DNA from: Dermatophagoides farinae
Taxonomy: Eukaryota > Arthropoda > Arachnida > Sarcoptiformes > Pyroglyphidae
Direction of reading: 5' to 3'
Length of the DNA: 64,000 nt
NCBI RefSeq assembly: GCF_024713945.1
Contig: NC_134677.1
Coordinates: forward strand, 8,454,001-8,518,000
In this document: positions 481 through 58,800 of the stretch, in pieces
Position numbering within the stretch: position 1 is the stretch's first letter
Layout: every line of letters begins with the position of its first letter
Program-made: the position numbers and the translations under genes
The notes under the pieces: model-generated
Database searches by the model: none
Told to the model about the DNA's origin: nothing
The model's input: the letters and a program-made list of their open reading frames with translations, nothing else

Positions 481-1527
481 ATGGAGAATCTTAATACAAT
501 CAATTCTGCTTTGAAAAAAGTTAGTCTGGTTCGTTCGGCAACTCTTGATACGTTAAAATTTATGGCCAACACATATCAATCATCAAGAGAAGTGGAAATT
601 GAAATGGATCCGAATAAAAGCGATAATTATATGGGTGAATTATCATCATTATCGAATGTTTTGGAAACCAGAGTTCGTGAATTGGAAACTGCTTGTACGT
701 TGTTATATCCAACGCTCAATTCAATCAATTTAGCCAACACAGAAATGATTGCTCAAGATCCTAATTATGAAAAGACAACCTGGTATCCCGATATGGTCAT
801 ATCATATCGATGGTTGAGCAACACTCAAGAATATTCAACATTGGCATTTCAGGCATTGCAAACAAAATTTAGTAAACGAAATTCTCGTTATAGACAACGA
901 ACATCGAATCGTGCTAATTATAATCATAATTTAAGTAATCATCAAATCGATTCATTCATTGCACAATTACAACGATCTGTTGATGCGATGTCCATCGAAG
1001 TAGTTCGACCATTTGGTGTATTCACTGTTCTTAAAATTGTTTTAGATCGAACTTTAAGAGCTATCATTGTGTTGCGAGGATTGGTCATCGAATGGGTATT
1101 GGTGAAAAGTTTTGAAGAAAATTTCGATAAATTAACATCGAATAATTTGGCTAAAATATCCGAACGAAATCCATATGCTACGAATTTCATTGATCTATTA
1201 CAAGACGATACGATGGATATTTGGAAACCATCACGATATAAAGTGTTTCGTACAATCACTGACCATTGTAATGCTGCCATTTTACATTTTTATGCTCCTT
1301 TTCAAATGGAAAGTGCGATCAAAGTTTTTATGGTAAGATATCAATCATTGATTTTTAATTTTGGATTTAATTTTGTCTTTTCGATCATTTAGCTATGGTT
1401 ACGAAGTTATTCAACACTATTTTCAGCTGTATGTCGTAAATGTGATTCACGATTATTGAATGATATGCCACCAACATGGCGTGATTTTCGTACCAATGAA
1501 CCATATCATTTTGAATGTAGACCATAA
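481..1527 (+). CDS. MED27: Mediator of RNA polymerase II transcription subunit 27
   Basis: Two exons, 481-1332 and 1393-1527, joined across a 60 bp intron (ATG|GTAAGA ... CATTTAG|CTA), give 328 residues; family members are about 310. The intron is required: reading through it gives a spurious ending, while splicing gives LWLRSYSTLFSAV and then the C-terminal MED27 signature CRKCDSRLLNDMPPTWRDFR. The CxxC pair and PPTWRDFRT block are hallmarks of the family. The N-terminal half is helical and weakly conserved. MED27 is a nuclear component of the Mediator upper tail region, linking activators to RNA polymerase II. Identification rests on the C-terminal signature plus alignable segments such as VFxxxTDH in the middle. 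The start is the first ATG of the long frame; an out-of-frame upstream ATG exists at 458. Confidence 0.93.
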
Positions 1528-4500
1528 TAATCATCATCATCATCATCATTTTTCATTTTCAATTATCGTTTCTTACTTTTACAATCATCATCATTTATAA
1601 TACAGATCTTCATATAAAAGATTCAAATTTATAAGAAATTTTTACCAGAATTAAATTAAAAAAAAAAAAAAAATCACCGAGTTTTGTCACGTGAGAAAAT
1701 GAACCATTTTTTCTGAAAACTAGATGGCAGCAGATGAAATTGTTTTTTTTCTCTGTTCACTTGTTTAAATTAAAAAAAAAATACCGGCAATTAAATGATT
1801 GGAAACATTTCAAATGGCCAGTTTTTTTTCATTTCGTGTTCATTGAAAAAACAAAACAATATCAGCCATCAAATGAAACAACGAAAAAGTGATCAATATA
1901 CTTGTTGGTCATTCCAATTTAATATTTAAAAAAAAATGAACATATTGGATGTAAATCACCAAAAAAAAAAAACTAAACAAAACAAAAAAAACCATTTATT
2001 GACCTGTTTTTTTTTGTGTCTATTAAAATGAATGAATGTAACAAGAATACATATTGGTTAAATTGGATTTTATTTATCACTGGTTCTCGTTATTTTTTCT
2101 TTGTCATTGTTGCTTGGTTTTTATATAAAAAGAAAAAAAATGAGCAGTCCATTCATTCATTGGATCGCGTGAGTCATTGATTCAATGATTTTCGGCTATA
2201 ACATTACACACACACACACATTGTATTCAGGATGATGATGAATCCAGGCATATATACAATACAATACGATAGATTTTCAAAAAAAAACCGTACTCATTAA
2301 ATCTATCAAAGCACCTGTGCCCAATTTGTCCGAAATATTTTTTTTCCTCCATTTTTATGTTTCATTGTTCGGGTACCCCCAACACACACACTTGTGCCTG
2401 GGGTTTGTTGTAAATTGATCAGTTTGTTGGTTGGTTATATGGTTGTGTTTGGACCATAATTCCATCTCTATACATCACTCTCTCTCTCTTTATTCATTGA
2501 ACCTGAACCAGCCACACACACACACACACACACAATAATAATCAATCCAACCAAATGTCATATGAAAGAATCATATGGTCGATTCCATCATCATCATCAT
2601 CAACAATTGGACATGACTTTAATTTTGAAAATTGCAATTGAGAGTGAGAGAGAGAGGTGAAATTAAATGAAAAAAAAAATACTAAACTACCACACCGATA
2701 TGTTCATCATCATCATCATCATCATCAAAAAAAATGTGAACATTTCAAACTGATTGGAACAAGTGAACTTTGGCCCGTGAACATTGAATCAACCAACCAA
2801 ACAATAGGTGACTTGTTTCGAGCTAATTAGAAATGATGGCTATTCAGTTCTATCCAGTTGTTGTTTTTTTTTGGCTATAACACACACACACATATGCTTT
2901 GCTTGTGTGCTTATAAACATGGAATATGGTGTGTTTGTGTGTCAAAATATTGACTCATTCAAGTGTATAATGGTGACAGTGATCATGTAATTGTCCAATT
3001 GCTTTATTAGACCAATTCACCATCACCATCACCATCATCATGATGATCATCATCATTTATTCAGCTACATTCATTCATTCAATGTATGTTTGTTGCCTAC
3101 TCGAAATGATGTTTGTTGTTGTGCCCAAAAACCTATCTCGTACAACAAAATGATGGTCGGTCTTCAAATTCAATGCACGTGCAAGGTTTTCAGATAGAGA
3201 AAGAGAGAGAGAGAAAATATTATGTGCACGGACTATACATACATTGTTTGCCTATTATGGCCACATTAATAATAGATTTGGAACCTTTCTATTCGCTTTT
3301 TTTTCTATCTAATTCCAATTTCACGATGAACAGATGGTTGACAGTATTTTGTATATTGTATAGCAAAAAAAAAAAAACGTATCGAGAATGGAGAATCATA
3401 ACAATAGGATATAAATATCAACCCAAATGGAGAAACAAAAAACACAATGATACATCTATTTTTTTCAAGTGTGATTTAGTAGGAAAAAAAACGGTGACAA
3501 AATCATCATCATCATCATCGTCGTAGTCGTGATAATAATAATCGGACAGCTTATAAAAATGCACATTATTACGGTAAAATTCAAATTCGAATCAAATCAT
3601 ATGGTCACAAATCCTGAAATGAATAAAATGAGTTAATCAATTTGTTTTGGCTCAAACATCACCATAAAATTAAGTCATTCGACACACTTTACACACAAAA
3701 ATCGATATCGAAATCAAACTTACGAATAGATCCATATGTTTTTGTTTTATTTTTATTTTTATTTTTTTTCGATAATTATATAGATAGATTCTGTTGAATT
3801 TTGGACACAAGAAAAATTAAACGAATGGATTCATTTCGTTTATCGATTAACAAAAAAAAAATGGAATGTGAAAAATAATAAAAGAAAACAAATTCGTAAA
3901 AATGAAACATTCATAAATGAAATGCAACAAAAAAATCGGAATGTGTCATGTTTTCGTTCGATGATGATGATGAGTAAGAACAGAATTTGAATTCGATGAA
4001 AAAAAAATAAAGAAGCAAAGGAAAAAATTTGAAAAATAAAAATTAATCTGTGTGCAATGAAATCGTGTTCGTGTGTGTGTGTGTGTGTTTGATAATCGGT
4101 CGATATTATTCAAATTTAATGACGATGAATGATGAGGCGAAACAAAAAAAAAATGAGAAGAAATTGGCACCGCTATTTTCATGTGTTTTGGTTGTATGTG
4201 TTTGCTGTTTTGTTGTTGTCATACACATCACAATTTAAATGATAATCGATTTGGCTTGCATTTATAATAATAATAATGAATGTATATGATTCTTGTAATA
4301 ATTAATTCGATTAAATTGGATAATATTTACACATAATAATAATGGGAATAATAATGAATTGGATTGGATTGGATGTCAAATGTAAAAAAATTCTTGATTC
4401 TCGTACTGATGGTTGACAATTGAGTGAATCTTTTCTTTTTTTTCGGTTAAAATTTCCAGAAATTTTTTTGCTTAAAAGTTTTTTTTTTTGGTTAGAAAAA

Positions 4501-50516: not shown

Positions 50517-51191
50517 TCAATGATAAACACTGTCACGTGATACACTCATATCATGAATGGCTGATATTGACATTGAATTTCGTTGTCGATAAGCTTCGAT
50601 TTCTTTTTGTCTGTTTTACGAGGGAAAAATGAATTAATTGAATGAATGAATGAATATAATTTTCATACCTGATACACATGTAAACAAAAACACCTGACAA
50701 TGTGGTCATAATAAGATTCAATAAAATGATCAATAATTTTAGACCACCATCGCCAATAAAACAATTAACAACGATTGCGATTGCCATGACCACAGCAAAC
50801 ACAGATACAACCGAAACTTTTCGTAATAAAGCACCAAGTAATCCAATCAATTCAAAAGTGAAACAAATTAAAGCCATAATCAACATGGCCACTGCACTCA
50901 TTTCTACAATTTAAAAACAACAATTTGTTATAAATGATGTGGTGGTGTTTTTTGTTTTTTTTTTTTTTTTGCTACATTACCGACTGATTTTCGATCCTGT
51001 GGATGATAATTATTGCTGGGAATATTTTTCGTCGTCGTCGTTGTCGTTGTAGTTGTTACATCTTGTGCATTGGCCAATGCAAATAATCCGGATACTAATT
51101 GTGAAATTGATCCAATAATGCCAAATATAACAATCAAAATCAATATATATCGTATCAAAGCAAAACTATCTGAATATGGATAAGTAGACAT
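50517..51191 (-). CDS. Small four-span membrane protein, family not identified
   Basis: Three exons, 50981-51191, 50669-50903 and 50517-50610, give 179 residues; all joins keep frame (GTCG|GTAATG; ATCAG|GTATGA). Hydrophobic segments lie at about 11-41, 73-97, 100-121 and 123-148, so four membrane spans with both ends likely cytosolic. The first loop contains a run of nine Thr (46-54) and NxxN-type polar residues; the C-terminal tail is Ser/Arg-rich and polar. The layout resembles arthropod small tetraspan proteins (for example pasiflora-like or MARVEL-like), but no diagnostic motif was recognised. Function not assigned. Convergent with Na/K-ATPase, 758 bp away. Confidence 0.75.
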
Positions 51192-52528
51192 TGTTGTTGT
51201 TGATACACAAATTATTTAATTCGTCGTTGATTCGATTCTAGTCGTTTTTTTTCTCTCTCGATGATAGATTTGAAAGAAAATATCAATCCTGATCAATAAT
51301 GTACGTTCGATATGTTTACCGATTCTAATCGAATCGTTTGTTGTTGTTCCATTGTTCATGATGATACCACCTATGTGTGTGAATGTAATGTCTAGGTCAT
51401 GTTTCCACTCTTATCATTTTTTTTCCTGTAAATCTCTCTTACAAACAACAACAAAAACGACAACGACAACGATAATGGCACAGAGAATAAGTTGTTTTTT
51501 GTTGTTATTGTTGTTGACGTCGTCATCGAATTTTTTAGTGTGAATGATAGAAAAAAAAGGCGTACATATAAAACTACTACACGACACAAAATTAGGCCAT
51601 AATCATCATCGATATGATTCTGTTTTTTCGATTTGATTAGACGATTCGATTCGATATTATTTTTCATTGTGATTTTTCTTTCTTTTTTGTTTTTGCCATT
51701 ATTATTATACAATATCATTTCATTGTGATTCATCAGAATCATAGAATATATATATAGGCAATATATTCGTGTATACGATATATTATTGGCGTATGTATGG
51801 ATTGGATTGGATATATGTATGCTAAAAATAAAATCAAAGAAAAAAAAACATTAGGCCAACAAATCATATATGCTGGTAATATATTCCAAAAAAAAAGATA
51901 AATAAAATGGTGTTATGTATAGTGCCAAATTTGCAATGGAAAAAGGCTAAAATTTTAGGTTTACGCCCAAAAATGTTTCGGATCGTTTTTTCTTTCTTTC
52001 TTTGGCTTTTTTTGGAACTATTTTTTTCGGAATATAAATCAAAAAAAAAGCAAAAAAAAAAATCACAAAATTTATTCATACTTCAATTCGAACAAAGTTC
52101 ATATATGAATCAATCAAAAAAAAAGACAAAAAAATTAATTATTAATAAGTTTCACAATAGTAGTTTATTCATACCAGAAGAGGTATATCTCTAAGATTTG
52201 ATACCTGACAACAATATATAATTTCACATTTTGTTTTGTTTTTTTTTCAAAAATCATTCATTGACATGTGCTGTCATCTAGTGTCTGGAAAAAAATGGTT
52301 AATTTATTCACGTGACAAAATGATGGACAAAACTATCGATAGTTCGTAATTCAAATCTCGTAAGAATGGCCACTTTTTTATCATAACTATGATTTGACAA
52401 CGAATTCAGCAAAAAAAAAGACGACAAAAATGATACATCATTTATTTGACATAAAAATGTCAATTTGAAAGTTTTAAAAACTTTTTGAAAAACTACCATC
52501 GTATTTCCGAAAAAAAAATTAATTATAA
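51192..52528. other. Intergenic interval between the four-span protein gene and NCAPH
   Basis: 1.3 kb with the promoter of the four-span gene and the NCAPH 3' UTR. Open frames around 51860-52195 are AT-rich with no recognisable domain and are not called. The E-box/CTCF-like composite element lies at 52265-52320. Confidence 0.6.
52265..52320 (-). promoter_or_regulatory. Composite element, second copy (TCACGTGA plus CTCF-like motif)
   Basis: On the minus strand: TTTTGTCACGTGA (52320-52308), AACCATTTTT (52300-52291), ACTAGATGACAGCA (52283-52270). Same order and spacing as 1682-1736. It lies about 208 bp past the NCAPH stop codon in the NCAPH sense. Confidence 0.55.
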
Positions 52529-54538
52529 TCATAGAACAGGCGCATCGATTTGAAAATCGGAAAGCTCTCCGGGTGTCAATTTAAGATTCTGTTTTTTTTG
52601 TGAGAAAAAAAAAAGTTATTAGTTTAACTCGATTTAAATATAATTGTCAATTTGAAATCAAAATACCTTTTCATTACATAAATGTAATAAGGCTACAAAT
52701 GAAATCGGTGTACTAAGATTTTCATTCAAATTTTGTCGTAATGTAAATGGCAGATTTTGACGTAATTTGGAAAATGAAAAATTTTTTTGGCTATCACCAA
52801 TATCCGACGATGATGTATTGTTGCTGGAAATTTCTTCATCCATTATCGGACTAGTGGTTACCGTTGCTTGTTTGATTAGTGACCACATACTTAATTTCAC
52901 ACGTTTTATATCAACTTTTTTGGCCACTTTTGCATAATCAATATCCAATGCATCAACATGACTGGGTTCGGAATCTAAATTAATAGGCTCGGTATCTAAA
53001 TCCAAATTAAATCTATCTGCAGCCAAATCATTATCGAAATCAAAATCCGTTTGTTGTCGAATTGTTTCGTCCATATGGTGGTCACCATCAAATTCATTGT
53101 TCATAATGCCATCATCATTGTAATCGTTATTGTCTCTCCTATTACTATTCTTGTTTTCAATCAATCCATGGAAATTATAATCAATGGTGAAACAAGATCT
53201 AGTTTTATCATTCATTTTGTAGTTTCGTTGAATCTCACACAATGTTCTTCCGTCTGCAGAACTAATCCATTTGGATACTGTTTGATCTTGAAAATGAGAA
53301 AGGCTTGAAATTTTAAATTTTTTAACGAAATCTGTATGCTTAATACTGAAATCATGAGCAATATGAGCCGCTCGTTGTCGTTTAGGTTTTACCGCTGATT
53401 TTTTATTACGATTCAAATAACGATATCGGGCAACGTTTCGGAAAGTTTTTTTCAAAAATTCTCCATCGAAGAATTGATTATTCATTTCTTCAGCTCGTGG
53501 TAAAAATTTTAGAATGTTTTCAGAATCGGAATCACTTTCATTCGCAATTGATTCACTCATTATTGAAGGATTGACGTAATCATCGAAATTGACATCGTCT
53601 GGTTCATGAATATCATCGACGTTTGCGTTGATATCGAAATCAAAATTTAAATTAGTGTCTGTATCGAATTGTTGCTGTTGTTGTTGGCTGGACAATTCTT
53701 CTGGTTCGATATCAATGTCTCGACGAAGAAATTCAAAATTCATGCAAGGACGACTAATGTAATGATGTTCGAAAGCATATTCAGGCTTTAAGAATGGAAA
53801 TTTTATAGTACAGCTTTCGATATTTGGTAATGAATCAAAATCTAAACTTGCTTTTGAATCCAATAACATGGTAGCATGTGGATTTACCGATAAGTTGGCC
53901 ATTAACAAAGAATTGACATTGCCAACATCGAATGCAGCCGACAAATGATGAAACAATGGATCGATTTCAATATTTGTTTCAAGTTTTCCATTCAACGATT
54001 CAATATTAGCTGCAATTGTTTTGATGTTTTTTCTTTGCCTTTTACGTCTTGCTCTGTCATTATTTTCACCAAAATCGTTATCAAAAAGACCATCATCAAA
54101 ATTTGCATCATTTTGTTCAGCGGTTGCCATGGATAAACTGGACGATATTTTTTGCGTATTTGAAAAAACAAGATCCACTTTACTTTCATAAAGTTTAGTT
54201 CCAGCATCGATCGACATTCCTATCATCTTGAAATCAACATTGTCGTTTGGTAAAATAAACTTCATATTGCTTATGAAATTGTAAGAAAAAGCATTATTTG
54301 GATTGAATGATTTAGAATTGATTTCAAACAATGAATTCAAATAGACACCAAATTCTTTTTGATCCACGCGTCTTTCAATAGATTTCTCTTGATCATCAGG
54401 ATCAGCTTCAAATGTACGTAAACTTTTTCGGCTATCCAAAGCACGTCTCGAAAGGCTAACTTTACGTTTGCCATCTTCATTGATGTTTGGACTTGAGATG
54501 AAAGAATTTCCTTCGAAAATATCCTTAGATGTAGCCAT
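52529..54538 (-). CDS. barr: Condensin complex subunit 2 (CAP-H / NCAPH / barren), kleisin
   Basis: Two exons, 52667-54538 and 52529-52588, give 643 residues; vertebrate CAP-H is about 740. The start is the ATG at 54538, with an in-frame stop four codons upstream. Recognisable CAP-H features: KVSLSRRALDSRKSL near the N-terminus, DPLFHHLSAAFDVGNVNSLL in the middle, acidic central stretches, and the conserved C-terminal winged-helix end LLHLCNEKNLKLTPGELSDF, which is completed only by splicing in the last 60 bp exon. CAP-H is the kleisin that bridges SMC2/SMC4 heads and recruits the HEAT subunits in condensin I during mitotic chromosome compaction. Much of the centre is diverged, so naming rests on the conserved blocks. 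Head-to-head with the ELMOD3-like gene. Confidence 0.92.
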
Positions 54539-54808
54539 TTTCAAACATTAAACATCTTGTATATAAAATAATGGTGTTGAATAAAATTTCACAACGGTCC
54601 AATCGAAGCGCGAGTCAATTTTTTTCCTATATCCACACTGCTTGCCACAATGCTGTTCATATAGAAATTCTGAAGAAAAAAATTCAAAATTTCCATGACA
54701 ACAAATTGTTTTATTTTTAATTTCAAAATCTCAATATCGAAATTCTTCTAACCATATTTCACAATTGTGAATTATAAATTTGTGAATCATCTATTTTTAA
54801 AATTAATC
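54539..54808. promoter_or_regulatory. Divergent promoter interval between NCAPH and ELMOD3-like
   Basis: 270 bp. Contains CCAAT (54599-54603) followed closely by GAAGCGCGAG, a GC-rich word unusual for this AT-rich sequence and loosely E2F-like, which would fit a cell-cycle gene such as NCAPH. Binding is not shown. Confidence 0.4.
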
Positions 54809-55820: not shown

Positions 55821-58800
55821 TTTTTCAAACTTGAATGTGAAGGCAATTCTGGTGGTGCCTGATATACGTTTTTTTTATCGGGTAATTCTGGCGGTAATTC
55901 ATCTTGATCTTCTTCCAACGATATCGATGACGTAGACATTGGATAATAGACACTTAATTGACTTTGTATCGATGTACGTGAACTACTATAATTTCCACTA
56001 GATGGTCGTGATGAAATTCGTGATGATTTATTAAAATTTTCATTTTGATTATTTGATGATGGCGATTGTTGTTGTTCATTATTATTGTTGTTTGTATCAG
56101 AAATAAAACTTAAATTTCCTGTCGATTTTTTATGATGATCTGTATACCATTGTGTTTGTGAAATGTTTGCATTCGATGAATAACATATTGAATTTGATGA
56201 ATCTGGATTCAAACGTCGTGAATCTTTTCGTCGAAAACGTAATGTATTTGTCAAAGTGTTTGCGGCATTTGTGTTTGATCGTCCAAATAATGATCGTTTG
56301 GTTAATGTCCTAAAAAAATCGATAAAAATATATGAATAAAATGAAAAAAATCTAGTCAAATTTAATGACAACATACATTGTTCCATCGATTGAATTTCGA
56401 TGTGAGATTATTTGAGCTGTATCAGTAGGCATTGAAATGGTTAATCGTTGCATTTTATAATGATTTTCAATAATTTTTTGCATATCAGCAGGAAGATCAC
56501 CATGATAGATATCTTCATATTTACATCGGACATCATTACGCATTTTTTCAAATGATTCAACAATATATTGATAAAGACCATCCATACTTTGATTAATAAC
56601 ATGTTGCCGTTGTTTTTGATCAGCTATTTTAATGGCCAAATCTAACAATGGTATTTGATCGACAATTAATCTTCTCAGATGATCCAAATCTTCTTTATCA
56701 TATTCATCATCATGTTTATTATTATTATCATTATCGAAAAATGCTTCTTCATATTTGGAAACACCACCTTGAACATCAGAGCTAACAATACCTTTGATAT
56801 GCATCAACAGATTATGCAATGGATGTTTATTATCATCATCCAATAGATATCTATAGATGATCATACGTGTTTTTTCATTCATTTTTTCCATCGTATCGAT
56901 AGCATTTTTCAATGGATTCAATTGATATGTGAATTTTTCAATAATTTCCGAACGATACAATATACCGGGCAATGAAAACGCTGTACGATATTCACTTCTT
57001 TCAATCCACATACAAGCAAATTCATTCGATACAGGTCTTGATACATCATGGTTATAAGCATCTTTAATTAATTTTCTTGAAAATGTAAAACGATTAATTT
57101 CATTATATTGATAATATTTAATTATTCTTTCATCAACCAGTGTTTGTAAAAATTTATTCTTCACTTCATCACTAACTTTAGGATCAACACGATAAATGGA
57201 CAGATATTGATCATTTTGATTAGCTAGTTCAGATTCCTGTATATCCAATTTGTCCAATAAACGTGCTTGTGGAAATTGATTCTGTAAACGTTTTGTAAAT
57301 TCAAACAATCTTTCATAACTTTTTCCACGATATATAAATGATTTATTCTGGAAAAATGTTGAAAACGCTTTACCATAATAGGTTACATGAAAATATTCCG
57401 GTTCAATTCGTACACTGGATATGATAAGCTTATAGAATGATGCCATTTTTTCAAACAAACTGGACAACTTTACATAATCGAATATTTCATTTTCATATTG
57501 TTGTATCAATTCTTTACAATAAACAATACCGGCTTCCCATAGTTGACCTTTGTTAAAATTTTCAATAATATCAAAATATAATTTTTCTTTCAATTCACGA
57601 TGTGAATTATAGATATTATTATTATTATTATTATAACGTTCATCATTATTTTGTCGTAATAATTGTTCCAATTGTTTATCCGACCATTCCAACAATATAC
57701 TATGACGTGATAATGTATATGCAGCTTCATTATAATTTTCATATCGAATATGTAGATCATATAATTTATATAGATAACGAATATATAATTCTCTTCGATC
57801 AATACGTTCATAAAAATCAAGCAAATCAATTATGGCACTCATTAATGATTCATAATTATCAACATTTTTAACAACATTACGATAGATTAATAATTTTTCA
57901 ATTTGTTCACCAATTTCAGCAACAAATTTTTCAAAATTTTCTTTCACATATTCTTCATGATTTTCACTTGATTCAATAAACATGTTCGTCAATAGCTGTT
58001 TGAACTTTCTGTCACCTTTACCGGCAGTGATTGATAGATCCATTTGAGTGAGCATTTCATCACGAAAAATTGCCATTTTTTCCATACATAAAAACATATC
58101 GAAAAATATGACAATCGTATCTTTTCGTATGGCCAACATTGGTATTAGTGCCACTTGAAGTAATGGACCAATCAATGATGGTATAAATTCTGCTTTATGA
58201 TTACCCAAATGAAACCATAATGAACGTATCAAAATGATCATCTCTAAACGCATGTCTTTATTGAAATTTTTTTCCATACGTTTTCGTTTACAAAATGTAA
58301 ATGATTCCAACATTAATGATGGCTGCGTAATGAATTTAATCGAAATGAGAAACAATTGATTCCATGTATCGATACTGAAATCATCGAAATAGATTTTTTC
58401 TTTGGTAAAATTAATAATTCTTGTCATTGCTTTCAATATGACAACATTTTGTGTAATATTCATATAGGACCAATCGGTTGGATAAATCAATTTGGTTGCA
58501 TGATCAAAAATTTTCAATACGGATCGTATGAATTGTTCAAATTCATGATTACATTTTAATCGATTAAAAAATTCATTATAATGATAATCAGTCATTTGAT
58601 ACATGATGGCAATTATGATTGACCACATTTTATGACGAAATGTATTCTCGTTTCGTTTTTGCATTTGAAATGATAAAAATGTATCAATCATTGGCTGTAA
58701 TAGTATCTGTACAAAATCATTAATATCATATTTGATAATACGTAAATCTTTTTGTTGTATCAATATTTTCAATGCATCACTTATAATGGCCAAACATTTT

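Follow-up and report, generated by a model that had tools for sequence, protein, structure and literature searches.

In the crystal structures of CTCF, zinc fingers 4-6 read TAG-RKG-GCR and finger 7 reads CCA. USF and CTCF are both found in the chicken HS4 insulator, and the protein BHLHE40 binds CACGTG. BHLHE40 has been described as a CTCF partner (PMC7515718). The human CTCF consensus is given as CCASYAGRKGGCRS (PMC6746451), and a CTCF site is quoted elsewhere as ATGCAGCTAGATGGCGCTC (PMC5739101). A survey of arthropod assemblies recovered CTCF transcripts from nearly every one of them (PMC5094011), and CTCF fingers 4-7 have been used as a marker of the protein (PMC2749850). In the compact genome of the annelid Dimorphilus, active CTCF motifs are described as mostly single, located in promoters and open chromatin, and showing no clear direction (PMC7854359). 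Among the literature matches listed, no CTCF binding study in mites was found.

The window analyzed here is a 64,000-nucleotide stretch of Dermatophagoides farinae DNA. It carries two copies of a composite element, copy 1 at 1682..1736 (+ strand), downstream of MED27, and copy 2 at 52265..52320 (- strand), downstream of NCAPH. Both positions and strands had been given by the initial annotation and were borne out by the sequence. BLASTN against the window gave an alignment of 1682-1736 to 52320-52265 that spans 56 columns with 82% identity (E 1e-9 to 3e-10), and the match stopped at the borders from which the flanks had been claimed not to align. The local score of copy 1 against copy 2 was 37; none of the 500 shuffled versions of the copy-2 region scored above 21, and none of 410 other real window segments above 20. 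Both copies contain TTTTGTCACGTGA, AACCATTTTTT and ACTAGATGRCAGCA in this order, and their spacing differs by one base, within the limit that had been claimed. The left half holds the perfect E-box palindrome TCACGTGA in each copy (1687..1694 and 52308..52315), as previously described, with 34 bp from CACGTG to AGATG in copy 1 and 35 bp in copy 2. The AACCATTTTTT block common to both follows at 1702..1712 (+) and 52290..52300 (-), and then the CTCF-like core, which is ACTAGATGGCAGCA at 1719..1732 (+) in copy 1 and ACTAGATGACAGCA at 52269..52282 (-) in copy 2, the latter with A in place of the G of copy 1. Each core fits 12 of the 14 positions of the CCASYAGRKGGCRS core; copy 1 has AA in place of the leading CC, while copy 2 has AC for CC and ATGAC for ATGGC, reading ATGACAG, one base off.

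The 62.4-Mb genome was scanned with the exact two-part pattern, as the initial annotation had proposed, and matches were obtained at 2 places, namely copies 1 and 2, with 0 in the reversed control. The pattern CACGTGA-N(2-30)-AACCATTTTT gave 4 genome matches, of which only the two copies had their spacing. Within the window, the scan for cores listed one further, weaker match at 58010 (AAGGTGACAG). A third TCACGTGA of the window is located at 50533-50540, where no CTCF-like core adjoins it. A palindromic TATCGATA, which we take to be DRE/BEAF-like, lies at 52334-52341, 13 bp beyond copy 2 and between this copy and NCAPH; there are six palindromes of this type in the window. The MED27 coding region (481..1527, + strand, one short intron inferred) matched Pfam Med27 on 481-1392 with E 4.5e-7 and ends with a stop codon at 1525-1527. 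The 3' part of the coding region of NCAPH, condensin subunit 2 (52529..54544, - strand, one short intron inferred), matched Pfam Cnd2 on 52658-54544 with E 1.7e-47, and its stop codon is at 52529-52531.

The core of the right half belongs to a motif that is enriched throughout the genome. There were 13 exact genome matches to CTAGATGRCAGCA versus 1 for the reversed control, 74 versus 1 for ATAGATGGCAGCA, and 281 versus 59 for the CTCF-style pattern TAGRKGGCRSYA, so that, going by the reversed control, about one fifth of the 281 are expected as background. For CTAGATGGCAGCA, which occurs exactly 10 times in the whole genome, 205 matches were obtained with one mismatch allowed versus 12 in the reversed control; since some of them are CCAGATGGCAGCA repeats, the 205 are not all independent. 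Pairs of CCAGATGGCAGCA with a spacing of 252 bp occur close to contig ends (C1:9147038-9160044 and C3:9856-10120), apparently within a larger repeat. Of 53 sampled sites, 43 had flanks resembling those of no other site and 10 clustered, and mostly unrelated flanks are as expected of a binding motif. Words near the sites in the sampled loci were chiefly A/T-rich.

Base counts were taken from the first 100 of the 281 TAGRKGGCRSYA sites. In this sample, TAGATGGCAGCA was found at 41 times the base-composition expectation. The RS positions after GGC read AG in 60 sites, GC in 23, AC in 11 and GG in 6, giving the AG or GC of the CTCF consensus in 83/100. The RK positions read AT in 90 sites, GT in 7, AG in 3 and GG in 0, with AT alone clearly above composition. 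The RK degeneracy of the human consensus was thus not found in these 100 sites, and we therefore call them CTCF-like sites, not proven CTCF sites. The leading CC of the consensus was weak in the sampled sites of the mite motif. A rule of convergent site pairs was dropped, as convergent neighbors were not in excess among the same 100 sites (21/91 consecutive pairs, and 8/40 of those under 120 kb).

A CTCF orthologue was found in the same genome at C6:654212-655181 (locus L066). Among 127 zinc-finger matches to the vertebrate CTCF fingers, the best E-value was that at C6:654383-654682, with 71% identity over 100 residues, and the second-best place in the genome had 39% identity, over a longer stretch. 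Three complete fingers in one exon have contact residues (-1, 2, 3 and 6) identical to those of vertebrate fingers 4, 5 and 6 (TGER, ESKR and DYKR), showing that the central fingers are conserved, while the finger after them differs from vertebrate finger 7 at the contacts (QNSA against QGTM). Given the bases contacted by fingers 4-6 and by finger 7, this pattern would agree with retention of TAGATGGC and loss of CC in the mite motif. The open frames of the locus contain ten recognizable fingers and an eleventh apparently split by an intron, and the zinc fingers are spread over several open frames in L066:562-3031 (introns inferred). Among solved structures, the best match of the locus was CTCF (E 5.9e-65), with ZNF568 a close second (E 3e-63). 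The resemblance of the right half to a CTCF core, which had been claimed from the window, is supported by the genome-wide enrichment, by the alternation of AG or GC and by this orthologue.

The left-half palindrome TCACGTGA is presumably a target of bHLH or bHLH-ZIP proteins. The frequency of CACGTG in the window was 0.17 per kb. Using 49 loci (the 52 of the orientation count described below minus L049, L057 and L058), CACGTG was present at most 60 bp upstream of the core at 3 sites, versus 0.48 expected, in all cases at 34-35 bp, and two of these three sites are the discovery copies. With 3/49 sites, the E-box is no general partner of the CTCF-like core and was rejected as such. Across the remaining 11 CTAGATGRCAGCA sites, chance alone would give 0.004 E-boxes at those two distances. 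Genome pairs of CACGTGA...TAGATGRC had a total length of 40-42 in 5 of 10 cases, out of 31 possible lengths (reversed control 1), this band being picked post hoc. Without the discovery copies, 3/8 pairs fell in the band (p 0.035), and also without L069, which lies inside an apparent coding exon, 2/7 (p 0.14). In the opposite order, with TAGATGRC before CACGTGA, there were 7 pairs, 1 of them in the 40-42 band. Looser and overlapping searches for E-box and core gave 5, 10 and 5 pairs, the last set having 4/5 with CACGTG-AGATG at 33-35. The recurrent spacing of E-box and core is suggestive.

A third composite, L007 at C2:531725, has the E-box and the CTCF-like core at the spacing of the copies and is without the AACCATTTTTT block. 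Aligned with either copy, it scored higher than any of 300 shuffles (23 versus 20 for one, 25 versus 22 for the other), and CTAGATGACAGCACATGT is common to L007 and copy 2. The alignments of L070 and L069 with the discovery copies were no better than shuffles. L007 is flanked on one side by an ABC transporter gene. The gene on the other side is TAF1B-like, with a Zn_ribbon_RRN7 match that does not reach the curated cut-off (E 6.3e-5), and the E-box lies 40 bp upstream of the start codon of this gene.

Taken as a whole, the two copies are probably CTCF-type predicted binding sites with a palindromic E-box about 34 bp upstream, intergenic and located past a housekeeping gene. Judged from the sequence, an ordinary regulatory site, and not a special gene-end device, is the most likely description of such a unit, and the copies would most likely be counted among the ordinary CTCF-type regulatory sites of the mite, three sampled ones of which have an adjoining E-box. 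The mite CTCF would bind ACTAGATGRCAGCA with its central fingers, and an E-box dimer would bind on the 5' side of CTCF, about 34 bp or roughly three helical turns away. Together they could maintain an accessible site and isolate the neighboring transcription units or adjust their activity. The two copies, the genome-wide motif and the orthologue with its identical finger 4-6 contacts are observed, while binding, co-binding and any insulating or promoter role are inferred. Against this reading, the identical finger-5 contacts would predict more GT and AG at RK, CTCF is only narrowly ahead of ZNF568 in the structure match, copy 2 is one base off, the 5' CC is weak and the E-box is rare.

A possible but rather doubtful explanation is that the 55-bp unit represents one small duplication, kept or decaying without function, whose E-box spacing was inherited and not selected. 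This would agree with the AACCATTTTTT block, which stands in register between E-box and core in copies 1 and 2 only, with the location of both copies within 51 kb on one contig, and with the identity that stops sharply at the borders. However, most of the differences between the copies fall in the spacer, E-box and core being kept, the core is independently enriched genome-wide, and the spacing of E-box and core recurs on a different contig in L007, which lacks AACCATTTTTT. The close likeness of the discovery copies may still owe something to a small local duplication.

It is unlikely, although worth consideration, that the right half is a YY1/Pho-type site instead of a CTCF site and the unit a promoter or Polycomb-type element. 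The YY1/Pho consensus is AAGATGGCGGC; the RK positions are nearly always AT, as in ATGGC, and the ATGGC core is common to both motifs. The form CAAGATGGCAGCA (CAAG) made up 6 of 100 one-mismatch places listed, versus 10 exact CTAGATGGCAGCA genome-wide, so that following C no clear preference for T over A emerges from a search that covered the CAAG forms. The YY1-like TAGATGGCGGCA (GCGG form) was 7.4-fold enriched, with 3 matches only. The endings GCGCCA (TAGATGGCGCCA, 10 matches) and GCGCTA (TAGATGGCGCTA, 9 matches) lie outside the YY1 motif, yet they were commoner, with 24-fold and 9.5-fold enrichment over base composition among the 100 sites counted. Copy 2 breaks the YY1 core with its ATGAC, the GGC of CTCF being broken too. 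Cores in the 236.7 kb outside the sites were too scarce to favor either CTCF or YY1. A CTCF-type site remains the preferred reading of the right half, if slightly less so in view of the CAAG forms and the enriched TAGATGGCGGCA.

Copies 1 and 2 are convergent and face each other across 50 kb on one contig, with Cbl, a cation ATPase and a DEAD-box helicase between them. We regard as quite improbable the bolder proposal of a two-protein composite in mites, in which an E-box dimer and CTCF would sit a fixed three or so helical turns apart and the two near-identical convergent copies would close a 50-kb loop with these genes inside.

The initial annotation had also suggested an oriented boundary- or terminator-type element at gene 3' ends. 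Both discovery copies indeed lie past the stop codon in gene orientation, by 154 bp (MED27) and 208 bp (NCAPH), within the 150-210 bp described before. Because coding pieces were called with a crude codon model over 3 kb per locus, the 3'-end test has low power. For the orientation count, L019 was excluded together with L001-L002, L036-L045 and L066-L068, which were E-box-selected or repeated, and 52 loci remained. The site was within coding sequence at 1 of these loci, and a coding piece was found upstream at 31, on the same strand in 19 and on the opposite strand in 12. This lean is not significant (p 0.28) and counts both discovery copies and three overlapping loci, hence a preference for gene 3' ends or gene orientation was not found in the 52 loci, and the rule does not generalize in this sample. 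It is also contradicted by L007, which lies at a gene 5' end, its E-box ending 40 bp before the start codon and its core pointing away from that gene. The 3'-end orientation rule was rejected, and such an element is very unlikely.

The alternative suggestion of a very short dispersed repeat found no support, since the 55-bp unit has two full copies only. Eight of the 52 sampled CTCF-like motifs lie within a foldback, MITE-like family. Three of its loci were examined and have arms of 83-108 bp, 90-96% complementary, with the motif pointing outward (L048:1486-1715; L055:1505-1686, paired with a GCGCCA site; L056:1469-1703, with a GTAGATGGCGCTAC pair near the center). Seven minus/plus pairs about 160-200 bp apart among the ATAGATGGCAGCA matches resemble this family, 2/7 being checked by sequence. 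It is highly improbable that the motif as such is a relic of this family, in which ATAGATGGCAGCACTAGTTTCAAAAA is carried by the outward-facing arms. Those 8 sites match the family at 13 or more of 17 positions in the flanks. Among the remaining 44, 5 reach 9 or 10, whereas 3.4% of shuffles reach 9, an excess by which a few single sites may be relics. However, 39/52 sites score at most 8, with shuffles averaging 4.9; the scores of copies 1 and 2 are 2 and 8, respectively, and no inverted repeat enclosing either copy was listed in the 800 bp around each, the pairs nearby being A/T-rich only.

The analysis lists CTCF-like sites and identifies a CTCF orthologue in a compact mite genome. If the E-box spacing proves selected, it would amount to a simple CTCF-partner grammar in an animal that is neither a vertebrate nor a fly.

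Compared with human CTCF sites (CCASYAGRKGGCRS; PMC6746451), copy 1 fits from the third consensus position as ACTAGATGGCAG, and the mite motif likewise has AG or GC after GGC. The mite motifs are also dispersed and single, with mostly unrelated flanks and a CTCF gene present. In contrast to human sites, RK is nearly always AT, the 5' CC is weak, the second G of GGC is replaced by A in copy 2, and the mite sites are known as sequence. As in Dimorphilus (PMC7854359), a compact genome with a CTCF orthologue has single motifs whose neighbors follow no clear direction, the mite sites showing no convergent excess, whereas both discovery copies lie past stop codons and are likewise known from sequence. 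Finally, as with BHLHE40 and CTCF, or USF and CTCF in chicken HS4, a CACGTG-class E-box adjoins a CTCF-type site; unlike those systems, the mite E-box, itself a sequence feature, is placed at 34-35 bp and occurs at few sites.
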